Shown in pieces: positions 6,513 to 20,719 of a stretch of DNA of 64,000 nt. The first letter of the stretch is position 1; the number at the start of each line of letters is the position of its first letter. The stretch comes from Armatimonadota bacterium (GTDB lineage Bacteria; Armatimonadota; Fimbriimonadia; Fimbriimonadales; Fimbriimonadaceae): positions 62,001 through 126,000 of the forward strand of contig JACRPN010000021.1 of NCBI GenBank assembly GCA_016223145.1, written 5' to 3'. Below the pieces are notes generated by a model, which saw only the letters and a list, made by a program, of their open reading frames with translations, made no database searches and had not been told where the DNA came from. The translations under genes were made by a program, and so were the position numbers.

Positions 6513-9500
6513 ATGGATCCCAAAGACCGCAAGCAACCGCCTGACAACACGCTTCTGGCGCGATGGCGCGAAACCGGCGAGTGGTGGTCCGGCGCCCCAC
6601 AGCTTGAGTTTGCGCGTTATCTCGATGGGCGAGGCATTCGGCGTGAGAAGTCTAGGGAGGGACCCAGCATCGGCCAGTTCCGTTCGACGCCACCCAAGCC
6701 CGAGGATCAGGACTACCACGACGAATGGAACCTGCGCCTGAAGAAGACGCGCGACGAGAAGGTCGCCAAAGCCTGCGGCCTCATCCCCAAAGAGAGGATT
6801 TTGGAGGATGAAGCCACCTCGCCCCATCGGGGAGAGGTCGGTGAACGAAGTGAACCGGGTGAGGGGGGAATGGGTCCGAGGTCTCAGGTCCGAGGTCCGG
6901 GTCCCGAGGGGAAACAGGGACAAAGGGACGAAGGGACAAAGGGACGGAATCCCACCTCGCCCCATCGGGGAGAGGTCGGTGAACGAAGTGAACCGGGTGA
7001 GGGGGGAATGCAATCACCTCGTGAACGCAAAAAGGAAGAAACCCTCTCCATCGGTGAAGCACTGACCCCCTATGGCGTCTCACGAAAAGAGGTAGGCCGC
7101 GCCAGAAGGCTCGGAACGCTCACCGAACTGAGCCCGCAACACGCGATCAGAACCTCGAAACTACATAGCGTCTCGAACTCGACAAAACCTCTAGAGCGCA
7201 ACTCCAGAGGAGCATTGCCGAGACCAAAGGGCCGACCTGCTGGAGCGAAGGGCGAAGCCCTGGACCGTGGCGCCCAATCGGAGCCAAGCCCCGAAGGGAC
7301 GACACGACTGACCCTACCCTACGCCCCATTACACCTCTACACCGGATACGCCTTTGGCCGGGGCACCATGCTCGCCGAGGAAATCCCGCTCATTTGTGCT
7401 GCGGCCGGCATCAAGGTGGCTGCCATCGCCGATCCGTTCGCACTCACGGGCTGCGTCGAGTTCGTCAAGCGGTCAAAAGCCTCCGGCATCAAACCCCTGG
7501 TCGGTGCCAGCGTCCAACTGCCCGAGGGCGGCTGGCTGGTGCTCATCGCCAAAACCAAGGTGGGCTACCAGAGCCTCTCGGAGCTGCTTTCCGCGTGCCA
7601 TCTGGATGAGCCCAGGCAGTTCCCCATGGCCACTTGGTCCCGTCTGCAACGTTACAGCCGCGATCTGATCTGCCTGACCGGAGGTGACATCGGTCCGCTG
7701 GATCGCTTGCTTGTTCAAGGCCAACTCCCAGAAGCGCAAAAACTTGTCGAGCGGCTTTGCGAGATCTACGGGCGCTCGAACGTCGCCATCGAAATCGAGA
7801 TGAGCTATCTGCCCTGGCAGATCGTCGCCAACCGCCGCCTGCTCGAACTGGCGGAGGCCTGCGAAGTCCTGCCCGTAGCGGGGGGTTGCATCACCCACGC
7901 AAGGCCGCAACACTTCCCCGCCCAGGACATGCTCGTCTGCGCCGAGACGCTGTGCACCGTCGACGAGATCATCGGGCGCAAGCTCCAGCGGGAAGCCAGC
8001 CAGCCTCAACTCGACCCGCGCCCCGAGCGAGCCATCAACGCCGAGCGCTACCTGAGAACCCCAGCCGAGATGACGCGCCTCTTCGTCGACCGTCCGGACC
8101 TTCTCGAAAACACCCTCCGTATCGCGGATCGCTGCGAGGACGACGTGCTGCCAGGGCGCACCCGTCTGCCCGAAATCTTCCCGGACCCCTGCCACGCATT
8201 GAGGGAAATCACGTTGGCGGGGGCTCACCAGCACTATGGGACGATGCAGCCCAGGCTCAAAAGGCGCATCGAGCAGGAGCTTTCCCGCATCAACGCGCTC
8301 AACTTCGCCGACCACTTTCTCGCGATTTGGGACGCCTGCAATTGGGCTCGCGAGCAGGGCATCCAGTTCAGCGGACGGGGGTCGGTGGTGGATTCCGCCG
8401 TCGCGTATTGCCTGGGGCTCTCGCGCATCGACGCCTTCAAGCACAACCTCCACTTCGACCGATTCCTGCCCGCAGATGGCAGCAAGCGCCCGGATATCGA
8501 CGTCGACTTCGAGGCGCGGCGACGCGACGACGTCAGGCTCTATTTCGCTCGCAAGTACGGCGAGGACAGGGTTGCCGGCATCTCCGCCATCGGTGCTTAT
8601 TGCACGCGTGGCATCATCCGGGAAGTCGGCAAAGCGCTGGGACTACCCAACGAAACCATCGGGTTCCTGGCCAAGAAAGTGCACGGGGGAATCCCTCCCG
8701 ACCAGCTTGAATCGGCGCTCACCAGCAGGCCCGAATTGGCGGGTTCGGGGATTCCCAAAGAGCGGTTCCGCTGGGTCTTTGAACTCTCGGAGAGGCTGAT
8801 GGACATCCCGCGCAACATGCGCTCCCACTCGAGCGGCCTGCTGCTCTCCAGCCGCCCGATCCGCGAGACCGCCCCGCTCCTCTGGAGCGCCTCACCGTTT
8901 TCCATGGAGCGGATCCCGAGTAATGGTGATCAGGTTTTCAGGTTTTCAGGTTTTCAGGATTATTCAGCAGCTATTGCCCACTCTGACGATAGACATCTCG
9001 CCCCTGAGCACCTGAGCACCCAAAACCTGAACACCACTTCCTCCCCCCTCTTCCCCATCATCCAGTGGGACAAACGCTCGGCCAAGCACTTCTTCGACAA
9101 GTTCGACATCCTCTGCCTGCGCGGCCAGGACGTGCTTTCGGGAACCCAAGAGCGCATACGGCTGAGAGCGAGGTCTGAGGTCCGATGCCCGAGGTCCGAG
9201 GCATCGCGAAGCGAGGAATCTGATCGTCATCCTCTTTGCGATAGTCAAATAAAGTCTGTTTCAGGGGAGAGTCACAGCAGATTCCTCGCTTCGCTCGGAA
9301 TGACGCCGGCACCGATTCCCTCCCCCCAGCACCCAGCACCCAACACCCAACACCATCCCTACGCCGATTTCAGCGTTGAGCGCCTCCCCACCGACGATGA
9401 GGAAACCTACCGCGCCATGCGCTCGGGGGAACTCATCGGCATCCCGCAATCCGCATCGCCCGCCATGCGCCAGGCACACATTCGCCTGAGAACCCAAGAC

Positions 9501-11120
9501 CTGCACGACGCGAGCTTGGTTCAAGCGGGCATCCGCCCGGGGGTCGGCGGCGCCGTCAAGATCAACGAACTGATCGCCCGGCGGCGGGGCAAGCCCTACT
9601 CCTTCGAGCACCCCGAACTGGAGCGCATTCTGGGACTGACCTACGGGATCATCGTGTTTCAGGAGCAGGTCGACCAACTCTTGCAGACCTTCTGTGGCTA
9701 CACCAGCGGCGAGGCCGAGGACATGCGCGAGGCGATCCACAAGCGCCGAAGTGAAGATTACGGCCGGCAAATGAAGGAGCAGATCGTGGCCAAAGTGCTC
9801 TCGAACGGCTTCAGCGCGTCCGTTGCGGAGCAGGTCTACGATTACGTCTCGGGTTTTAAGGGCTATGGGTTCGCCCAGGGCCATGCCCTCGCGTTCGCTG
9901 AGATTTCCATCCGCTCCATCTATTGCCAGCAGAACTTCCCCGCCGAGTATTTCGCGGCCCTGCTGACCGCCCAGCCGGCGGGCTATTACGGCGAGAGCAC
10001 GCTCTGCAACGAGGCACGCATTCGCGGTGTGAAGATGCTCCCTCCAGATGTGAACCTAAGCCAGGTCACCTATTCGGTCGAAGACGTGAAGTCGGACATG
10101 GATCCGAAGATCGTGCTGCCCAACGCCGCGATCCGGGTTGGACTCATGCGCGTGCAAGGGCTATCAAAGGAGACAAGGGAGAGGATCACCAGAGGTGATG
10201 GGGATGGTGAGAATTGTATGTATGGTGAGAGTGGTGAGAGTTGTCTCCGGAACGACTCTCACCATGCGTACAATCCTCACCACTCTCACCACTCTCACCA
10301 TCCTCACCAGTTCTTTTCCTTCTTCGACTTCGTCCTGCGCGTCCGACCCGACCGTGACGAGCTTGAGAACCTCATCCTTTGCGGTGCGCTGGACTCCCTG
10401 CATCCCAACCGCCGAGCCCTGCTCTGGGCAATCCCAAGCGCGATAGAGTTCGCGGAATTGCACGGGGCGATGCACGATGCGCGAATAAAGAGAAGTGGTT
10501 CTCAGGTGGTCGGGTTGTCAGGTCTTCCGGTCCGGCCTGAAAACCCAACACCCGAGAACCTGAACACCCCAGCACGTCGTAAACCGTCAATCTCAAATCG
10601 TAAATCCGAAATTCCCCTCCCCCTCTCCTTCCCCGAACCCGAACTCCCCACAGGCATCGAGGACTTCTCAGAAGCTGAGAAGGCGGTCTTTGAGCGCAGT
10701 CTCCTGGGCCTCGACGTCGAGCGGCACCTGATGGCGTTTGAACGGGAGCGAGTACGAAACCGTGGCGGGATCACCTGCCTTGAAGCGAAATCTCTCGCAC
10801 CCGGCCGCAAAACGATCGTCGTCGGCAACCCGATCCGGCTGCGCTTCCCACCGACGCCCAGCGGAAAGCGCGTGGTGTTTTTCGACCTGGAAGACGAAAC
10901 GGGGCTCCTGAATGTGACTTGCTTCGACGCCACGTACCGGCGGGATGGGCACGCCATCGTGTGCTCACCTTACGTGACGCTGATTGGTGTGGCACAGGAT
11001 CGAGACGGCCACACGGCCTTCCTGGCGCAGAGGGTCTTCCCCTATCACCCCGTCCTCGGCAAGCTCACCCCCGCCGATACGGCGCTACCCCTCACCACGG
11101 CCGATTTCTTAGCGCAATAA
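6513..11120 (+). CDS. dnaE2: Error-prone DNA polymerase III alpha subunit DnaE2/ImuC with in-frame repeat insertions
   Basis: Translesion polymerase of the ImuB/DnaE2 mutasome. The PHP domain begins near residue 270 (YAPLHLYTG), the palm carries GRGSVVDS and the acidic PDIDVDF (Asp 661/663/665) with the third Asp in KFDIL (865), then YGIIVFQEQV, the HhH region and a C-terminal OB-fold near 1410-1500. At 1535 residues it is some 400 longer than usual DnaE2 (about 1050-1150). Much of the excess is repeat-like, low-complexity inserts at about residues 101-166, 805-846, 882-949, 1227-1267 and 1328-1369, whose DNA matches intergenic repeat families in this window. Catalytic motifs are intact and no stop interrupts the frame. 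A short N-terminal segment with GEWW (residues 14-50) precedes the first insert. Confidence 0.92.
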   Translation: MDPKDRKQPPDNTLLARWRETGEWWSGAPQLEFARYLDGRGIRREKSREGPSIGQFRSTPPKPEDQDYHDEWNLRLKKTRDEKVAKACGLIPKERILEDEATSPHRGEVGERSEPGEGGMGPRSQVRGPGPEGKQGQRDEGTKGRNPTSPHRGEVGERSEPGEGGMQSPRERKKEETLSIGEALTPYGVSRKEVGRARRLGTLTELSPQHAIRTSKLHSVSNSTKPLERNSRGALPRPKGRPAGAKGEALDRGAQSEPSPEGTTRLTLPYAPLHLYTGYAFGRGTMLAEEIPLICAAAGIKVAAIADPFALTGCVEFVKRSKASGIKPLVGASVQLPEGGWLVLIAKTKVGYQSLSELLSACHLDEPRQFPMATWSRLQRYSRDLICLTGGDIGPLDRLLVQGQLPEAQKLVERLCEIYGRSNVAIEIEMSYLPWQIVANRRLLELAEACEVLPVAGGCITHARPQHFPAQDMLVCAETLCTVDEIIGRKLQREASQPQLDPRPERAINAERYLRTPAEMTRLFVDRPDLLENTLRIADRCEDDVLPGRTRLPEIFPDPCHALREITLAGAHQHYGTMQPRLKRRIEQELSRINALNFADHFLAIWDACNWAREQGIQFSGRGSVVDSAVAYCLGLSRIDAFKHNLHFDRFLPADGSKRPDIDVDFEARRRDDVRLYFARKYGEDRVAGISAIGAYCTRGIIREVGKALGLPNETIGFLAKKVHGGIPPDQLESALTSRPELAGSGIPKERFRWVFELSERLMDIPRNMRSHSSGLLLSSRPIRETAPLLWSASPFSMERIPSNGDQVFRFSGFQDYSAAIAHSDDRHLAPEHLSTQNLNTTSSPLFPIIQWDKRSAKHFFDKFDILCLRGQDVLSGTQERIRLRARSEVRCPRSEASRSEESDRHPLCDSQIKSVSGESHSRFLASLGMTPAPIPSPQHPAPNTQHHPYADFSVERLPTDDEETYRAMRSGELIGIPQSASPAMRQAHIRLRTQDLHDASLVQAGIRPGVGGAVKINELIARRRGKPYSFEHPELERILGLTYGIIVFQEQVDQLLQTFCGYTSGEAEDMREAIHKRRSEDYGRQMKEQIVAKVLSNGFSASVAEQVYDYVSGFKGYGFAQGHALAFAEISIRSIYCQQNFPAEYFAALLTAQPAGYYGESTLCNEARIRGVKMLPPDVNLSQVTYSVEDVKSDMDPKIVLPNAAIRVGLMRVQGLSKETRERITRGDGDGENCMYGESGESCLRNDSHHAYNPHHSHHSHHPHQFFSFFDFVLRVRPDRDELENLILCGALDSLHPNRRALLWAIPSAIEFAELHGAMHDARIKRSGSQVVGLSGLPVRPENPTPENLNTPARRKPSISNRKSEIPLPLSFPEPELPTGIEDFSEAEKAVFERSLLGLDVERHLMAFERERVRNRGGITCLEAKSLAPGRKTIVVGNPIRLRFPPTPSGKRVVFFDLEDETGLLNVTCFDATYRRDGHAIVCSPYVTLIGVAQDRDGHTAFLAQRVFPYHPVLGKLTPADTALPLTTADFLAQ
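6814..7010 (+). repeat. Two exact 59-bp repeat copies (family A) inside dnaE2
   Basis: Bases 6814-6872 and 6952-7010 are identical over 59 bp. They are 138 bp apart (46 codons), so both are read in the same frame, as TSPHRGEVGERSEPGEGGM. Between them is a family B tract built from GGGACAAAGGGAC units (6913-6949). Diverged copies of family A lie between genes at 28947-29025 and 44749-44830, both in reverse orientation. Confidence 0.9.
8925..9050 (+). repeat. CAGGTTTTCAGG-type inverted repeat (family C) inside dnaE2
   Basis: Tandem GGTTTTCA units on the left face CCTGAGCACC and AACCTGAACACC units on the right, so the RNA could fold into a long imperfect hairpin. It is translated in frame within residues 805-846. 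The same family lies between genes at 20998-21088 and again in dnaE2 at 10494-10590. Confidence 0.8.
9156..9357 (+). repeat. Composite hairpin repeat (GCGAAGCGAGGAATCTG/CAGATTCCTCGCTTCGC) inside dnaE2
   Basis: The left arm GCGAAGCGAGGAATCTG and the right arm CAGATTCCTCGCTTCGC are exact reverse complements about 60 bases apart. They are followed by tandem CCCAGCACCCAGCACC units at 9323-9355. The segment is translated in frame (residues 882-949) just after the third catalytic aspartate region. Confidence 0.8.
10191..10311 (+). repeat. GTGAGAGT/ACTCTCAC inverted repeat (family D) inside dnaE2
   Basis: GGTGAGAGTGGTGAGAG-type units are followed by their complement, CTCACCACTCTCACC-type units, giving a histidine-rich in-frame insert (residues 1227-1267). 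The same units occupy the gap upstream of hslU (20401-20670). Confidence 0.8.
10494..10617 (+). repeat. Second family C inverted repeat inside dnaE2
   Basis: CTCAGGTGGTCGGG and GTCAGGTCTTCCGG units face CCTGAAAACCCAACACC and GAACCTGAACACCCC units. The segment is translated in frame (residues 1328-1369) between the HhH region and the C-terminal OB-fold. Confidence 0.75.
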
Positions 11121-14917: not shown

Positions 14918-15733
14918 CTAGGCCGCGCGCTTCGCGCCGAACCCGAACACGCCGAGGAACCTGTCGGCCAGGCTCGTCTTCTGAGCGGGCGCCTGGCTTG
15001 CGGTTCCCGCCACGGCGGCGGCGAGGCGCGCCACGTCGCGAGAGGCCGCGCCGGTCGGGTTCGCCAGCGCAAAAGGCTTTCTCTGCCGTGTGCAGGCGGC
15101 GGCCTGAGGGTCCATCCGCACGAAGCCCGCCATGTCGAACGACTTGCCCAAAAATTGGTTCGCGATGGAGTAAAGCTTGGCGTATACCGATCGGGCCTCC
15201 GATTCGTCCGTCGCCAAGTTCACGATCACTCGGACCTTCGCGTTCGGCGTATGGCCCCAGAGAACCTTCGCGGTGGCATAGGCGTCCACCATGCTGCTCG
15301 GGTCTGGTGTGACCACCAGCAAGACCTCGTCTGCGGCCTGCAGAAAGGCCATGACATTCTGGTCGATCCCGGCGCCGGTGTCGAAGATCAAGAAGTCCGT
15401 CTGAGCTTCAAGATCGCTGAGCTCGCTCAAGAAGGTGTTGAGGTGCCGTTGGTCCAGGTTGACCAAGGACTCGACGCCCGAGCCTCCCGCGATGAATTTG
15501 ACGCCGGCTGGGCCTTCCGCCATGGATTCGATGAGCCGCACCTGCCCTGCGAGCACCTGCTCCAGGGTGTGGGCAGGCTTCGTGCCAAGCATGACGTCGA
15601 GGTTCGCAAGGCCGAGGTCCGCGTCGAAGAGTACGACGCGCTTCCCCGACTGAGAAAGCGTGATGCCGAGGTTCGTGGAGATGCTGGTCTTGCCGACGCC
15701 GCCCTTGCCGCTCGTAATCGCAATCGTTTTCAT
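14918..15733 (-). CDS. MinD/FlhG-like ParA-family ATPase
   Basis: P-loop ATPase that positions polar or membrane machines. The deviant Walker A is ITSGKGGVGKTSISTNLG near the N-terminus, with the switch I region DADLGLANLDVMLG and Walker B FLIFDTGAGIDQNV; the gene continues with PDPSSMVDAYATAK as in FlhG/YlxH. 271 residues. The C-terminus (LADRFLGVFGFGAK) could form an amphipathic membrane-targeting helix. ATG 15733 overlaps the stop of the upstream MshEN gene by 4 bases, so the two are translationally coupled. No flagellar genes are nearby except a FlgM-like gene, so a role in pilus positioning is inferred. Confidence 0.85.
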   Translation of the reverse strand: MKTIAITSGKGGVGKTSISTNLGITLSQSGKRVVLFDADLGLANLDVMLGTKPAHTLEQVLAGQVRLIESMAEGPAGVKFIAGGSGVESLVNLDQRHLNTFLSELSDLEAQTDFLIFDTGAGIDQNVMAFLQAADEVLLVVTPDPSSMVDAYATAKVLWGHTPNAKVRVIVNLATDESEARSVYAKLYSIANQFLGKSFDMAGFVRMDPQAAACTRQRKPFALANPTGAASRDVARLAAAVAGTASQAPAQKTSLADRFLGVFGFGAKRAA

Positions 15734-16965
15734 GCGGCCTCCCTTCGGCCAAACAGTCGCGACCAGAACGACCGCGACGGCTGAATGACGTTGGTGGACT
15801 GTTCGAGCAGGGCATCGCGATCGTAGGCCGCCGAACTCCCAGCCTGGGTGGAAACCTGCCAGGTACAGGAGGCCAGGGCCTGGGCCACTTGTACGGCTGC
15901 AGCGAACCTGTCGGGGTTTGAAGGGTCGCATCGCTCCATCGTCTCTCGGAGCTTTTGGGGCAGCGCCTCAAGGAGCGCGGCGGCCTGGCTGCCGCTCGAA
16001 AGCCCGGTCAGGCACTCCCGCAGCAGCGACCCTAGCGCCGCCACCTCGACCATCTCGTCGCCTTCGACGCTGGGAGCGCCCCAGAACGGGGCCAGAAGCG
16101 GCCCGTTCGCTGTGACTAGAATGTTGCTGGCGTGGATCAACCCGCAGCCGCTTGTGGCGCGGAGAAGCTGATCGCTGACCTCCGCCATGCGGGCGACGAT
16201 CTGGGCGGACTCCACGGCTGACCGGGGGCCGCGCGTGCGGATCATCAAGCCCAGGTTCTCGCCCTCAAGGCGCGGCATCACAACCCACCCAAACCCGTTG
16301 AACTCAAAGAAATCGTAGACCTCCGCGATCCAGTCCGACGAGACGGAAGCGAGCTTCTTGGCGCGTCGGAGGACCTCTGCGGTCTCCATATCGCCGATCA
16401 GTGTGACGGCGCGGCTCAGGACGCTGTCGACGGCGTCGTACTGCACGCTCGTGCCGATCTGCCGTCGGCGCTTGACGTTCTCGAACCGCTCGGGCAGCGG
16501 CGTCTCAATGGGCGTTGCCTCAGGCTCGACGCTCAGGCCGTAGGCCTTGGCGATCGCCTCGCGGAGCGACGACTCTGTCGCGACGGCAAGCTTGATGCGG
16601 TGCCCAGAGAGCATCGTCGCCACATCGGTGCCATAAACGTCCAGCGGGTCGCAGATCGCGCAAAACATGACGCCTTCGGTGGCGGAAACCGGAAGAACCA
16701 TGTGTCTCATCGCCATCTCGGGCGAAATGCACTGAAGGGCTTCGGACATCGGTTCGAGCGTCGCGGCGTCGACGAACGCGTAACCGTATTGGTCGGCGAG
16801 CGCTTCGGCAATTTCAAATTCAGTCACGAACCCGCGTTCAACCAGGATTTCGCCCAACCGCCGTCGGCAGGTCTGCTGCGCCGCGAGGGCTACCTGAAGT
16901 TGAAGGTTCGTGATCGAGCCGCGCTCAATGAGCAGCTCGCCCAGCTTGGTGTAGAGACCGATCAT
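15730..16965 (-). CDS. MshEN c-di-GMP-sensor domain fused to a pseudokinase
   Basis: Residues 5-145 form an MshEN domain with both c-di-GMP-binding repeats intact: LGELLIERG...LQVALAAQQ (8-31) and RRLGEILVERG...AEALADQ (35-59). Residues 168-375 match a Hanks-type kinase in outline (SVQYDAVDSVLSRAVTLI, then EVYDFFEFNGFGWVVMPRLEGENL). The catalytic residues are gone: no VAIK lysine (AVTLI), HRD replaced and shortened (GLIHASNILV, 275-284), and DFG replaced by PFWGA. ATG 16965 has AGGAG 8 bases upstream; an in-frame TTG 6 bases earlier is too close to it. The stop overlaps the MinD-like gene by 4 bases. Function inferred: a c-di-GMP-responsive scaffold for that ATPase. Confidence 0.78.
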   Translation of the reverse strand: MIGLYTKLGELLIERGSITNLQLQVALAAQQTCRRRLGEILVERGFVTEFEIAEALADQYGYAFVDAATLEPMSEALQCISPEMAMRHMVLPVSATEGVMFCAICDPLDVYGTDVATMLSGHRIKLAVATESSLREAIAKAYGLSVEPEATPIETPLPERFENVKRRRQIGTSVQYDAVDSVLSRAVTLIGDMETAEVLRRAKKLASVSSDWIAEVYDFFEFNGFGWVVMPRLEGENLGLMIRTRGPRSAVESAQIVARMAEVSDQLLRATSGCGLIHASNILVTANGPLLAPFWGAPSVEGDEMVEVAALGSLLRECLTGLSSGSQAAALLEALPQKLRETMERCDPSNPDRFAAAVQVAQALASCTWQVSTQAGSSAAYDRDALLEQSTNVIQPSRSFWSRLFGRREAA

Positions 16966-17156
16966 GCACAAGTTCTCCTAAGGGTATGTTCGGAGGCCCA
17001 AACCCGAATCAACAGGCCGGCCTTCCCAGCTGAAAACGGGATCGAATGTGCCCCACAGCCCTATTCCGCATCGCCGGACACTTTGTGCCCGGCAATTGCG
17101 CCTATGGAGGCCAGTGCCTGCGCAAGCGCCATCGCCAAAGGCGTATAACAGGAACG

Positions 17157-17855
17157 ATGTACACGCCGTACGACTGGCAGGAAGCGATCGGGCATCGAGC
17201 GCAGTTCATTGAAAGCAAGCTCGCGCTAGGAACCCCGGTGATCGCCGCTTCGTGCGATGCCGGCGTGCTGATGTTCACGCTTCGCAGGCAGTCGAGGAAG
17301 GTCTTCGAGGTGTATGACCGGCTCATCATGGGCGCCATCGGACAGCAATCCGACATCGAGGCGGTCCGACTCGCAGCCATAGACTTCTGCCATCGAGAAG
17401 GCTACGCGCACAGTGAAGAGGATGTGACCTTGCACCGCCTGATGAACGCGATCAGCGCTCCGATCAAGCGGGCTTTTGCAGACTTTTCCTCCGCGCCGAT
17501 CGTGGCCTCGAGCCTGTTTGGCGAGGTCGGGACGGCGCCTGAAGACGATCAGTTCGCCGTGATGGATTACGACGGCGACTATCGGACCAGCAAAGTCAGC
17601 GCGTTCGTCGCGGCAGACCCGAACCTGTCGGATTCCCTTCACAAGAAGCTCTCGGCTCTGGAGCTTGCCGGCAAGACCCCGGAGGAGGGAATTGCCATGC
17701 TGCAGAGCATTTGGGAGAGCGCCCTAAAGGAAACGGCCTCAAGGATCGACGGCTATGAGCCGGAAGAAGGCCTAAGGCCGGAAGGAGCCATCTTGCTGCG
17801 TAAGCCGATGGGAGAATCCCGATACCGGCACGTGAGCGACAACCTTGGTGAGTGA
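17157..17855 (+). CDS. prcA: 20S proteasome alpha-type subunit (PrcA-like)
   Basis: Non-catalytic outer-ring subunit of a bacterial proteasome. The order of elements matches PrcA: MYTPYDWQEAI N-terminal region, RAQFIESKLALGTPVIAASCDAGVLMFT first strands, KVFEVYDRLIMGAIGQQSDIEAVR, REGYAHSEEDVT, and the AEVG-type strand LFGEVGTAPEDDQFAVMDYDGD. There is no N-terminal catalytic threonine. ATG 17157 (232 residues) is chosen because the family begins there; AGGAAC lies just upstream. No beta subunit, Pup/UBact modifier, ligase or Mpa/ARC ATPase gene is in the window. It is divergent from the MshEN gene. Confidence 0.75.
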   Translation: MYTPYDWQEAIGHRAQFIESKLALGTPVIAASCDAGVLMFTLRRQSRKVFEVYDRLIMGAIGQQSDIEAVRLAAIDFCHREGYAHSEEDVTLHRLMNAISAPIKRAFADFSSAPIVASSLFGEVGTAPEDDQFAVMDYDGDYRTSKVSAFVAADPNLSDSLHKKLSALELAGKTPEEGIAMLQSIWESALKETASRIDGYEPEEGLRPEGAILLRKPMGESRYRHVSDNLGE

Positions 17856-18934: not shown

Positions 18935-20395
18935 TCAGAGGATATACCGGCTCAAATCGACGTCCTGGGATAGCTTCGCCAGCCGCTCGCGAACCTTCGC
19001 GTCGTCGATCTCCACCTTCTTCGCCGCGCCCTCGGGAGCGTCGAACATCAGGTCCTCCAGCAGCCGCTCCATGACGGTGTGAAGCCGCCGCGCCCCGATG
19101 TTCTCGGTCTTGCTGTTCACCTCCACTGCGATCCGCGCGATCTCATCGAGGGCCTTCTCCGTGAACGTCAGCGAGACCCCGTCGGCCTTCAACAGCTTCG
19201 AATATTGGGTGGTCAGGGCGTTCTGCGGCTCGCGCAGGATCCGCCGGAAATCGTCTTCCGTGAGGTTCTCAAGCTCCACACGGATCGGCAGCCGGCCCTG
19301 CAATTCCGGGATCAAGTCGCTTGGCTTGCTCATGTGGAACGCCCCGGCGCAGATGAACAAGATGTGGTCCGTCCGCACCGGCCCAAACTTGCTGGCCACC
19401 GTCGAACCTTCGATGATCGGCAGCATGTCGCGCTGCACGCCCTCGCGGCTCACATCCGGCCCCGATCCGCCCGACTTCCCCGCCACCTTGTCAATCTCGT
19501 CGATGAACACGATGCCTGTCTGCTCGGCGCGCTGCACGGCCTCCCGATGCACGCCCTGCCGGTCCACCATCTTCTGGGCTTCCTGCTGGAACAAAACCTC
19601 CTTGGCTTCGGCGACCGTCACCTTTCGAGTCGAACGGCGCGACTGGAAAGGACTCGACATCCCTCCCACATCCAGGCCCATCTCCTCCAGCCCTTGCGGA
19701 CTGAACACCTGCACAAACGGGCTGCTCGGCTCCTCGACCTCCACCTCGACGACCTTGTCATCAAGCGCCTTGCCCTGAAGCTGCTTGAGCAGCCGCTTAC
19801 GAAGCGCGGCTCTACGCTTTTCGGCTTCCTCATAGCTTTCGGAATCGACTTCCTCATCCTCTTCCGGATAGTCGTCCTGCATCTTGGAGCCAAAGATGGC
19901 GAAGGCCTGCTTGACGATCGGGTTGTCCAGCTCCGCCGGACGCTTGCGCTTCTTTGGCCGATCGGGAGAGGCGTCCACCAGCAGGTCGGCAAGCGTCTCA
20001 AGAGCACGGCGCTCGGCTTCGGGGCGGATCGCCTCGATCTTCTCTCGTTCAACGAGCCTTACCGCTGCTGCGGCAAGGTCGCGAATCATGGATTCCACAT
20101 CGCGGCCTACATAGCCGACCTCGGTGAACTTGGTGGCCTCGACCTTGACGAATGGCGCGCGCGCGAGCTGGGCAAGGCGCCGGGCGATTTCGGTCTTTCC
20201 GACGCCCGTGGGGCCGATCATCAGGATGTTTTTGGGCAGAATATCCTCCCGTTCTTCCTGGGGGAGCTGCTGGCGACGGTAGCGATTGCGCAGGGCGACT
20301 GCCACGGCACGCTTGGCGGCATCTTGCCCGACGATGTACTTGTCGAGGGCCGCGACAATCTGCCTTGGGGTCAGGTCTTCAATGGGGAGCGACAT
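18935..20395 (-). CDS. hslU: HslU, ATPase subunit of the HslVU protease
   Basis: AAA+ unfoldase that feeds substrates to the HslV peptidase. Motifs: LTPRQIVAALDKYIVGQDAAKRAVAVALRNR at the N-terminus, Walker A GPTGVGKTE, the pore GYVGRD loop, Walker B GIVFIDEIDK, and the C-terminal LSRYIL tail that docks into HslV. The I-domain is charged and long, as usual. 486 residues from ATG 20395 (MSLPIEDLTP). The intact docking tail implies that an hslV exists, but it is not next to hslU as is common, nor elsewhere in this window. The upstream gap is full of GTGAGA repeats. Confidence 0.93.
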   Translation of the reverse strand: MSLPIEDLTPRQIVAALDKYIVGQDAAKRAVAVALRNRYRRQQLPQEEREDILPKNILMIGPTGVGKTEIARRLAQLARAPFVKVEATKFTEVGYVGRDVESMIRDLAAAAVRLVEREKIEAIRPEAERRALETLADLLVDASPDRPKKRKRPAELDNPIVKQAFAIFGSKMQDDYPEEDEEVDSESYEEAEKRRAALRKRLLKQLQGKALDDKVVEVEVEEPSSPFVQVFSPQGLEEMGLDVGGMSSPFQSRRSTRKVTVAEAKEVLFQQEAQKMVDRQGVHREAVQRAEQTGIVFIDEIDKVAGKSGGSGPDVSREGVQRDMLPIIEGSTVASKFGPVRTDHILFICAGAFHMSKPSDLIPELQGRLPIRVELENLTEDDFRRILREPQNALTTQYSKLLKADGVSLTFTEKALDEIARIAVEVNSKTENIGARRLHTVMERLLEDLMFDAPEGAAKKVEIDDAKVRERLAKLSQDVDLSRYIL

Positions 20396-20719
20396 GAGGT
20401 GTGGGTGAAGACTCAGAACAACTCTCACCACTCTTGCGATTCTCACAAAATCGCCCTAAAGATCTCTCTCCAACCTGCCGTCATTTACTGATGTAGGAGC
20501 ACTCCGCTCAAACAGAAACAGGGCACGACGGGGGTAACCCCGCTCACGCAAAGCCTAGGGTCTCTGGAGCCTTGTGAGGATTGTGAGAGTGGTGAGAATC
20601 GTGAGAATCGTCCGGAACTCCGGAATCAACTCTCACCAATCTCACCAGATTCACCCTTCTCACCGTTCCGAGAAAGCCGGGTTGCCTGTCTGAGATCGTG
20701 GGCTGCCGTGGAGCAAGCC
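20396..20719. repeat. Intergenic GTGAGA/TCTCAC repeat tract (family D) between hslU and flgM-like gene
   Basis: Near 20410-20450, ACTCTCACCACTCTTGCG-type units; near 20573-20613, GTGAGGATTGTGAGAGTGG units; near 20630-20665, TCTCACCAATCTCACC units. Opposed units can pair into long hairpins. The same family lies in frame in dnaE2 at 10191-10311. Promoters for both flanking divergent genes must lie within or around it. Confidence 0.7.

Follow-up and report, generated by a model that had tools for sequence, protein, structure and literature searches.

Within a 64,000-nucleotide (nt) stretch of contig JACRPN010000021.1 (assembly GCA_016223145.1, positions 62,001 to 126,000 of the forward strand), from an Armatimonadota bacterium of the order Fimbriimonadales, family Fimbriimonadaceae, and hereafter called the window, we analysed a pair of genes that encode an MshEN-pseudokinase protein (P0001) and an FlhG-type ATPase of the MinD superfamily (P0002). 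On balance, we favour the reading that this pair is a control unit, responsive to the second messenger cyclic di-GMP (c-di-GMP), whose target, an FlhG-type ATPase, has become uncoupled from FlhF. An initial annotation of this DNA had named no strand for the two genes; both lie on the minus strand, and stops interrupt the forward frame starting at 14918. Its 4-base ATGA overlap with a MinD-type ATPase gene is seen at 15733..15730. A TTG two codons upstream of the ATG at 16965 is a possible alternative start for P0001. The features of the pair, in window coordinates and with lengths in amino acids (aa), are as follows.

15730–16965, minus strand: MshEN-pseudokinase gene (P0001, 411 aa), ATG at 16965
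16789–16947, minus strand: two predicted tandem c-di-GMP motifs (MshEN_N), P0001 residues 7–30 and 36–59; NCBIfam match and motif spacing
16531–16788, minus strand: MshEN C-terminal alpha/beta half, P0001 residues 60–145 (Pfam PF05157); Pfam and structure match
15859–16509, minus strand: pseudokinase domain, P0001 residues 153–369; kinase fold, the Lys of VAIK and the Asp of HRD and of DFG all missing
15733–15780, minus strand: P0001 C-terminal tail, residues 396–411; short, kept in long forms, low model confidence
15738–15745, minus strand: Shine-Dalgarno-like AAGGGAGG for the ATPase gene, within the P0001 gene; read from sequence
15730–15733, minus strand: ATGA start/stop overlap of the P0001 and P0002 genes
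14918–15733, minus strand: FlhG-type MinD-superfamily ATPase gene (P0002, 271 aa); opens directly with the P-loop strand and lacks a DQAxxLR helix
15686–15712, minus strand: deviant Walker A SGKGGVGKT, P0002 residues 8–16; intact
14921–14977, minus strand: P0002 C-terminal tail, residues 253–271; two short helices predicted, which may serve in membrane targeting

The N-terminal part of P0001 scored 64.7 bits with the NCBIfam model c-di-GMP_motif (cut-off 38) and, at residues 60–145, 63 bits with Pfam MshEN (cut-off 23.1). Its two 24-residue motifs are separated by a 5-residue spacer (repeat spacing 29), as in the published 24-5-24 layout (PMC5013675). The initial annotation had placed two motifs of RRLGEILVERG type at residues 8–59; two motifs do stand there, at 7–59; motif I starts KLG rather than RLG, and motif II has Ile at the first Leu of LxxxLxxQ. 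The six key residues (R, L, G, L, L, Q) accordingly read KLGLLQ in motif I and RLGILQ in motif II, the substitutions being conservative. In the predicted model of P0001 (built from nine sequences; mean predicted local distance difference test score, pLDDT, 77.6), residues 3–142 superpose on c-di-GMP-bound MshE (5htl_B) with a Z score of 18.2 and a root-mean-square deviation (rmsd) of 2.0 over 138 residues. Taken together, motif and modelled fold make it likely that P0001 binds c-di-GMP. The nearest solved relatives of this MshEN part are pilus ATPases; the glycosyltransferase NfrB has a similar part (42.7 bits). An identity as a pilus ATPase was rejected because the T2SSE ATPase domain is absent from P0001 in the Pfam scan; a kinase fold occupies that place.

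The kinase fold itself emerged from structure prediction, which the initial annotation had named as a check on its kinase-like region: residues 153–369 of the model match Mycobacterium tuberculosis PknB (1mru_B) with a Z score of 21.2 and an rmsd of 2.6 over 209 residues, and the top Foldseek matches for the region are bacterial PknB and PknE. By sequence, no Pfam kinase match was obtained in P0001 itself and other kinase matches were weak (PknB_PASTA, 19.1 bits; PknE, E-value 1.2e-4), while Pfam Pkinase was over its cut-off in four of nine full-length orthologues scanned (L009, L010, L011 and L016). The long N-terminal extensions of L009 and L011 (~290 and ~170 aa) were considered as extra domains and set aside as overlong frames with no family match beyond the known domains. 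At the alignment positions that we take to be those of the VAIK Lys, HRD Asp and DFG Asp, the catalytic residues are missing from all 13 aligned full-length sequences, Pro standing at the DFG Asp position in every one and Asn281 being invariant. By this alignment the domain is therefore a pseudokinase across the whole clade, and the loss of VAIK Lys, HRD and DFG reported in the initial annotation extends well beyond the window.

P0002 is closest to FlhG and FleN in both sequence and predicted fold. Its best solved relatives by sequence are FleN and FlhG, and its model (pLDDT 88.5) matches FlhG 4rz2 with a Z score of 33.8 and FleN 5j1j and 7ejw with 32.4 and 32.7, compared with at most 30.4 for MinD chains. 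It falls below the NCBIfam cut-offs for MinD (105.7 versus 212.9 bits) and BcsQ (76 versus 157.85 bits). P0002 starts MKTIAITSGKGGVGKT, and the N-terminal DQAxxLR enhancer helix is missing. The initial assignment to a MinD/FlhG ATPase therefore held as regards an FlhG type by sequence and fold; P0002 is, however, not a canonical FlhG, having neither DQAxxLR nor an FlhF beside FlhA. The C-terminal tail is conserved, with helices predicted at low to middling confidence, and P0002 is the single ATPase of its family in its own genome at E-value ≤1e-15.

The association between the two genes was followed in a first set of 61 genomes of the window's order and a wider set of 291 genomes of Armatimonadota. 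A search of the first set with P0001 returned 30 loci, comprising 13 full-length forms (its own included), 12 short forms of ~180–250 residues with MshEN only, and five secretion ATPases. The ATPase gene adjoins the MshEN gene on the same strand at all 25 long and short loci (13 + 12), with an intergenic spacing of −10 to +36 nt that is exactly −4 in 7 of the 25; none of the five secretion ATPases, which served as a control, has such a same-strand neighbour. Conservation of the pair in relatives, another check named in the initial annotation, was also found in the wider set, where by coordinates 17/17 MshEN-kinase genes and 29/31 short MshEN genes lie beside the ATPase (the doubtful G035:C25, G084 and G087, with frames of 299, 289 and 232 aa, were left out of the 31). 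One of the two unpaired short genes belongs to a pair split across contig ends (G166); the other (G006:C5) is a true single. Furthermore, among 80 loci listed from named genomes, all eight full-length relatives have the ATPase, and among the matches listed a same-strand ATPase neighbour was seen at none of 72 MshEN loci from other groups, a further control in which L131 gave a weak ATPase match on the opposite strand. Outside Armatimonadota, only the MshEN part was matched among the matches listed, mostly in frames of secretion-ATPase size. Other neighbour families matched no more than four other loci in 21 contexts (L037–L056 plus the window), a count that set aside antisense frames over the pair and the paralogues ApbC/Mrp-like ATPase (L038) and secretion ATPase (L045). 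This pairing goes well past anything expected by chance, and both checks, the kinase fold and the conserved pair, came out in line with the initial annotation. The two genes very probably form a functional two-gene unit.

Since many relatives keep the MshEN-ATPase pair without a kinase domain, what is conserved at the core is MshEN together with FlhG, to which the pseudokinase is added in one lineage. The initial annotation had cast the pseudokinase as the link that connects sensor and ATPase; the short pairs rule it out as an essential one. A second, divergent pair occurs in G038, its kinase also dead, and another in G157. The bacterial pair is carried as well by L057 (JADZEW010000035.1), whose title, Methanoregulaceae archaeon, looks wrong.

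Gene fusions bear on how the partners might meet. N-terminal PF05157 was over cut-off in seven of eight long ATPases of the order that were scanned, and four further ATPases lie downstream of a gene for a protein with PF05157 at its C-terminal end. No c-di-GMP motifs accompany these halves. By gene-fusion logic, this fusion of the MshEN C-terminal half to the ATPase suggests, by analogy, that this half contacts the ATPase even where c-di-GMP is not the input, and direct contact between the two proteins of the pair is, judging from sequence, a likely arrangement. The remaining long ATPase, L184, was tried as an MshEN fusion and dropped, Pfam having given no confirmation. In G026 (L180:4241-6877), two tandem FlhG-like ATPases each carry an N-terminal MshEN C-terminal half.

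Separation from FlhF is the other component of the proposal. In FlhG, the glutamine of DQAxxLR stimulates FlhF (PMC12826062, in part). The motif is present at 17/20 ATPase loci from Armatimonadota outside the order and in 0/40 N-terminal extensions scanned within it; the 25 reference-pair ATPase rows began at the Met aligned with that of P0002, with the upstream gene ending −10 to +36 nt away, and extensions were scanned elsewhere. Outside the order, FlhF was found near the ATPase at 8/20 loci by BLAST, and at three loci NCBIfam named FlhA and FlhF beside FlhG. Within the order, FlhF was over cut-off in 14/61 genomes, only one of which (G039) has the ATPase, and FlhF stands beside FlhA in 2 of the 20 pair-bearing genomes examined (G039 and, in divergent form, G038). 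The best FlhF match in the window's own genome scored 77.5 bits against a cut-off of 174.15, and none lies beside FlhA. Members of family f2, such as G041 and G051 (L167, L168), have FlhF over cut-off and FlhA and no FlhG-like ATPase at E-value ≤1e-15.

A comparable arrangement was found in G208, a genome of another Armatimonadota family, which has a regular flhA-flhF-flhG set and also a second FlhG that lacks DQAxxLR; after it comes an MshEN-kinase protein of 713 residues (L206:5022-7163) whose kinase Lys is kept and HRD Asp lost. By phylogeny, the ATPase beside this protein is sister to the FlhG of the same genome's flhA-flhF-flhG set (support 98/93). Constraining it to join the pair clade carries a penalty of 40.9 log units and was rejected (approximately unbiased test, AU, p-AU 0.004, a test run on 36 of the 85 rows and chosen after a first ATPase tree, built from 77 of the 85 rows with eight near-duplicates removed, had been seen). 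By this phylogeny, G208 holds a second, independent MshEN-kinase/FlhG association. Its MshEN-kinase protein has a hydrophobic stretch after the kinase and then ~200 residues, and may be a membrane-spanning MshEN-pseudokinase. More tentatively, we propose as possible rather than probable that the FlhF-FlhG switch of the window's order has been rewired, with the helix lost, FlhF mostly lost and an MshEN partner, with or without a pseudokinase, setting flagellar number or position, and that such coupling has two or more origins within Armatimonadota.

FlhG alternates between a cytosolic monomer and a membrane-bound ATP-dimer by means of its C-terminal helix (PMC12826062, in part), and the mechanism that we envisage for the pair is modelled on FlhG and MinD biology. 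Briefly, MshEN would bind c-di-GMP, as its motif and fold imply; binding would alter the docking of MshEN and pseudokinase on the ATPase; and the ATPase would shift between a membrane ATP-dimer, held by its C-terminal tail, and a free monomer. What the unit would set is how many copies of a cell-surface machine are built or where they stand, the flagellum being the most likely machine and type IV pili the next, with the pseudokinase acting as a protein-docking scaffold and no enzyme. In the long pairs, each of the two proteins has a short conserved tail at its C-terminus, which may be a membrane tail.

Which machine is controlled is less certain than the pairing, and we give a flagellar output an even chance. 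All pair-bearing genomes among the 61 have a flagellar marker (FlhA in 24/25 and FliG in the remaining one, G014), and G015 and G032, which yielded no FlhA and no FliG, have no such ATPase; flagella are favoured for these two reasons. Control of type IV pili instead, with the ATPase placing or counting pilus machines, is an unlikely output; in its favour are the resemblance of the P0001 MshEN part to the N-domain of PilB-type ATPases and its pilus-ATPase nearest solved relatives, five further MshEN genes in the own genome with frames of 550–732 aa (secretion-ATPase size) and PilM in 61/61 genomes. With PilM and PilB-type genes present everywhere, however, their co-occurrence is uninformative, G015 and G032 keep PilM without such an ATPase, and elsewhere in the phylum the ATPase family sits with flagellar FlhF at those 8/20 loci. 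GGDEF domains are equally uninformative by co-occurrence, being present in 60/61 genomes (six matches in the own genome). A BcsE-BcsQ-like role, in which the pair regulates an exopolysaccharide synthase, has a precedent in the degenerate c-di-GMP sensor BcsE recruiting the MinD-like BcsQ (PMC7439463, in part) and draws on the likeness to NfrB; it is improbable in view of the sub-threshold BcsQ score and of the 21 contexts, which hold no broadly conserved third gene.

That the ATPase is instead a cell-division MinD, the pair coupling c-di-GMP to division-site choice, appears more improbable still. Its being the only member of the family in its genome (at the E-value given above) would fit, as would the division role of Campylobacter jejuni FlhG (PMC12826062, in part), but MinC_C was found in 0/61 genomes while six control genomes gave matches, a result that ruled out MinD as the principal reading. 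The MinD score lies well under the cut-off, the fold is nearer FlhG, and the ATPase is missing from 27/61 genomes, which is unexpected for an essential division protein. Hardest to credit is a live kinase domain that phosphorylates the ATPase by an unusual mechanism: the G208 relative retains a VAIK-type Lys (RPVLLK) and Asn281 is invariant, yet the loss of Lys, HRD Asp and DFG Asp in 13/13 orthologues with Pro at the DFG position in all, the loss of catalytic residues in the second copy of G038 too, and the short pairs without any kinase domain all speak against it.

Several observations weigh against a c-di-GMP-responsive unit uncoupled from FlhF. Regarding the ligand, the motif I Arg is replaced by Lys in 4/13 and by Met in 2/13 long forms, the motif II Leu by Ile or Val in 13/13, and the motif I Gln is lost in 5/12 short forms, substitutions that may have weakened or abolished c-di-GMP binding in some pair members. 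The fused ATPases hold the MshEN_C half only, without c-di-GMP motifs; c-di-GMP is therefore not always the input. Regarding the partnership, G006 holds one short MshEN without an ATPase, the G021 ATPase falls inside the long clade of the tree with no MshEN upstream, and the reduced genomes G030 (L158 / L178) and G159 (L227) have the ATPase with no MshEN gene beside it, so that the ATPase can, as G021, G030 and G159 indicate, manage without the partner. (Both reduced genomes are 1.5 Mb in size and belong to the window's family; G030 keeps FlhA, and upstream of its ATPase lies a gene for a 443-residue low-complexity protein.) FlhF coexists with the pair in G039 and, as a divergent FlhF, in G038, and the split between FlhF and the ATPase, which tracks a single family (f2), is confounded by descent; with most of the contrast coming from f2, it does not represent many independent events. 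The G208 assembly carries 9% contamination, and its two genes stand in reversed order, 243 nt apart. Finally, the flagellar link is statistically weak, FlhA occurring in 55/61 genomes.

Set beside known systems, the pair would by analogy function like FleQ-FleN and BcsE-BcsQ while belonging to neither. With the FlhF-FlhG switch (FlhG/FleN/YlxH) it has in common the sequence, fold and P-loop of the ATPase, for which FleN 5j1j and FlhG 4rz2 are the best matches, and occurrence in flagellated genomes; unlike that switch, P0002 has no DQAxxLR, lies outside flhA-flhF-flhG in genomes where FlhF is mostly absent, and has an MshEN partner instead. FleQ-FleN of Pseudomonas (c-di-GMP-bound in 8pb9, by structure title) likewise joins a c-di-GMP sensor to an FlhG-family ATPase, but FleQ is an AAA+ transcription factor, whereas here MshEN and a pseudokinase take its place and no DNA-binding domain was found. 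BcsE-BcsQ of Escherichia coli cellulose secretion offers a c-di-GMP sensor on a dead domain, a MinD-like ATPase and membrane targeting (PMC7439463, in part); BcsE, however, is a degenerate REC-GGDEF tandem encoded in bcs operons, in contrast to the MshEN-kinase protein and FlhG-type ATPase described here. The MshEN proteins PilB, MshE and NfrB have the same c-di-GMP fold and motifs, while P0001 has no traffic ATPase or glycosyltransferase, a dead kinase and a nearly constant FlhG-type neighbour. The initial annotation knew of no described system with this domain pair, which is too strong: MshEN with a Ser/Thr protein kinase is among the architectures listed by Wang et al. 2016 (PMC5013675). 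The open-access literature searched yielded no account in which an MshEN protein is paired with FlhG; two papers there contain both terms, once each.

Elsewhere in the window, a plus-strand gene at 17046–17855, divergent from the pair, is just over the cut-off for Pfam Proteasome-subunit (25.6 versus 22.4 bits), and an HslU-like ATPase lies ~1 kb beyond it on the minus strand (18935–20446), possibly marking an odd proteasome-like peptidase. A 1535-aa frame for a DnaE-type polymerase III alpha occupies 6513–11120 on the plus strand; the region of its first ~270 residues, before the PHP domain, includes two identical 59-nt repeats (6814–6872 and 6952–7010), and the frame has either an overlong start or been invaded by repeats.

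The route from c-di-GMP to the apparatus that sets the number and position of flagella or pili is open in most bacteria, and this pair is a direct and genetically compact candidate for it: a single operon joins a receptor with a known ligand fold to an FlhG-type ATPase, and the genomes concerned mostly lack FlhF. It also puts a pseudokinase into what is likely bacterial spatial regulation and provides a series of states, from none (short pairs) through partly decayed (G208) to fully dead (the window). If the switch has indeed been rewired, a second messenger would directly set flagellar number or position.

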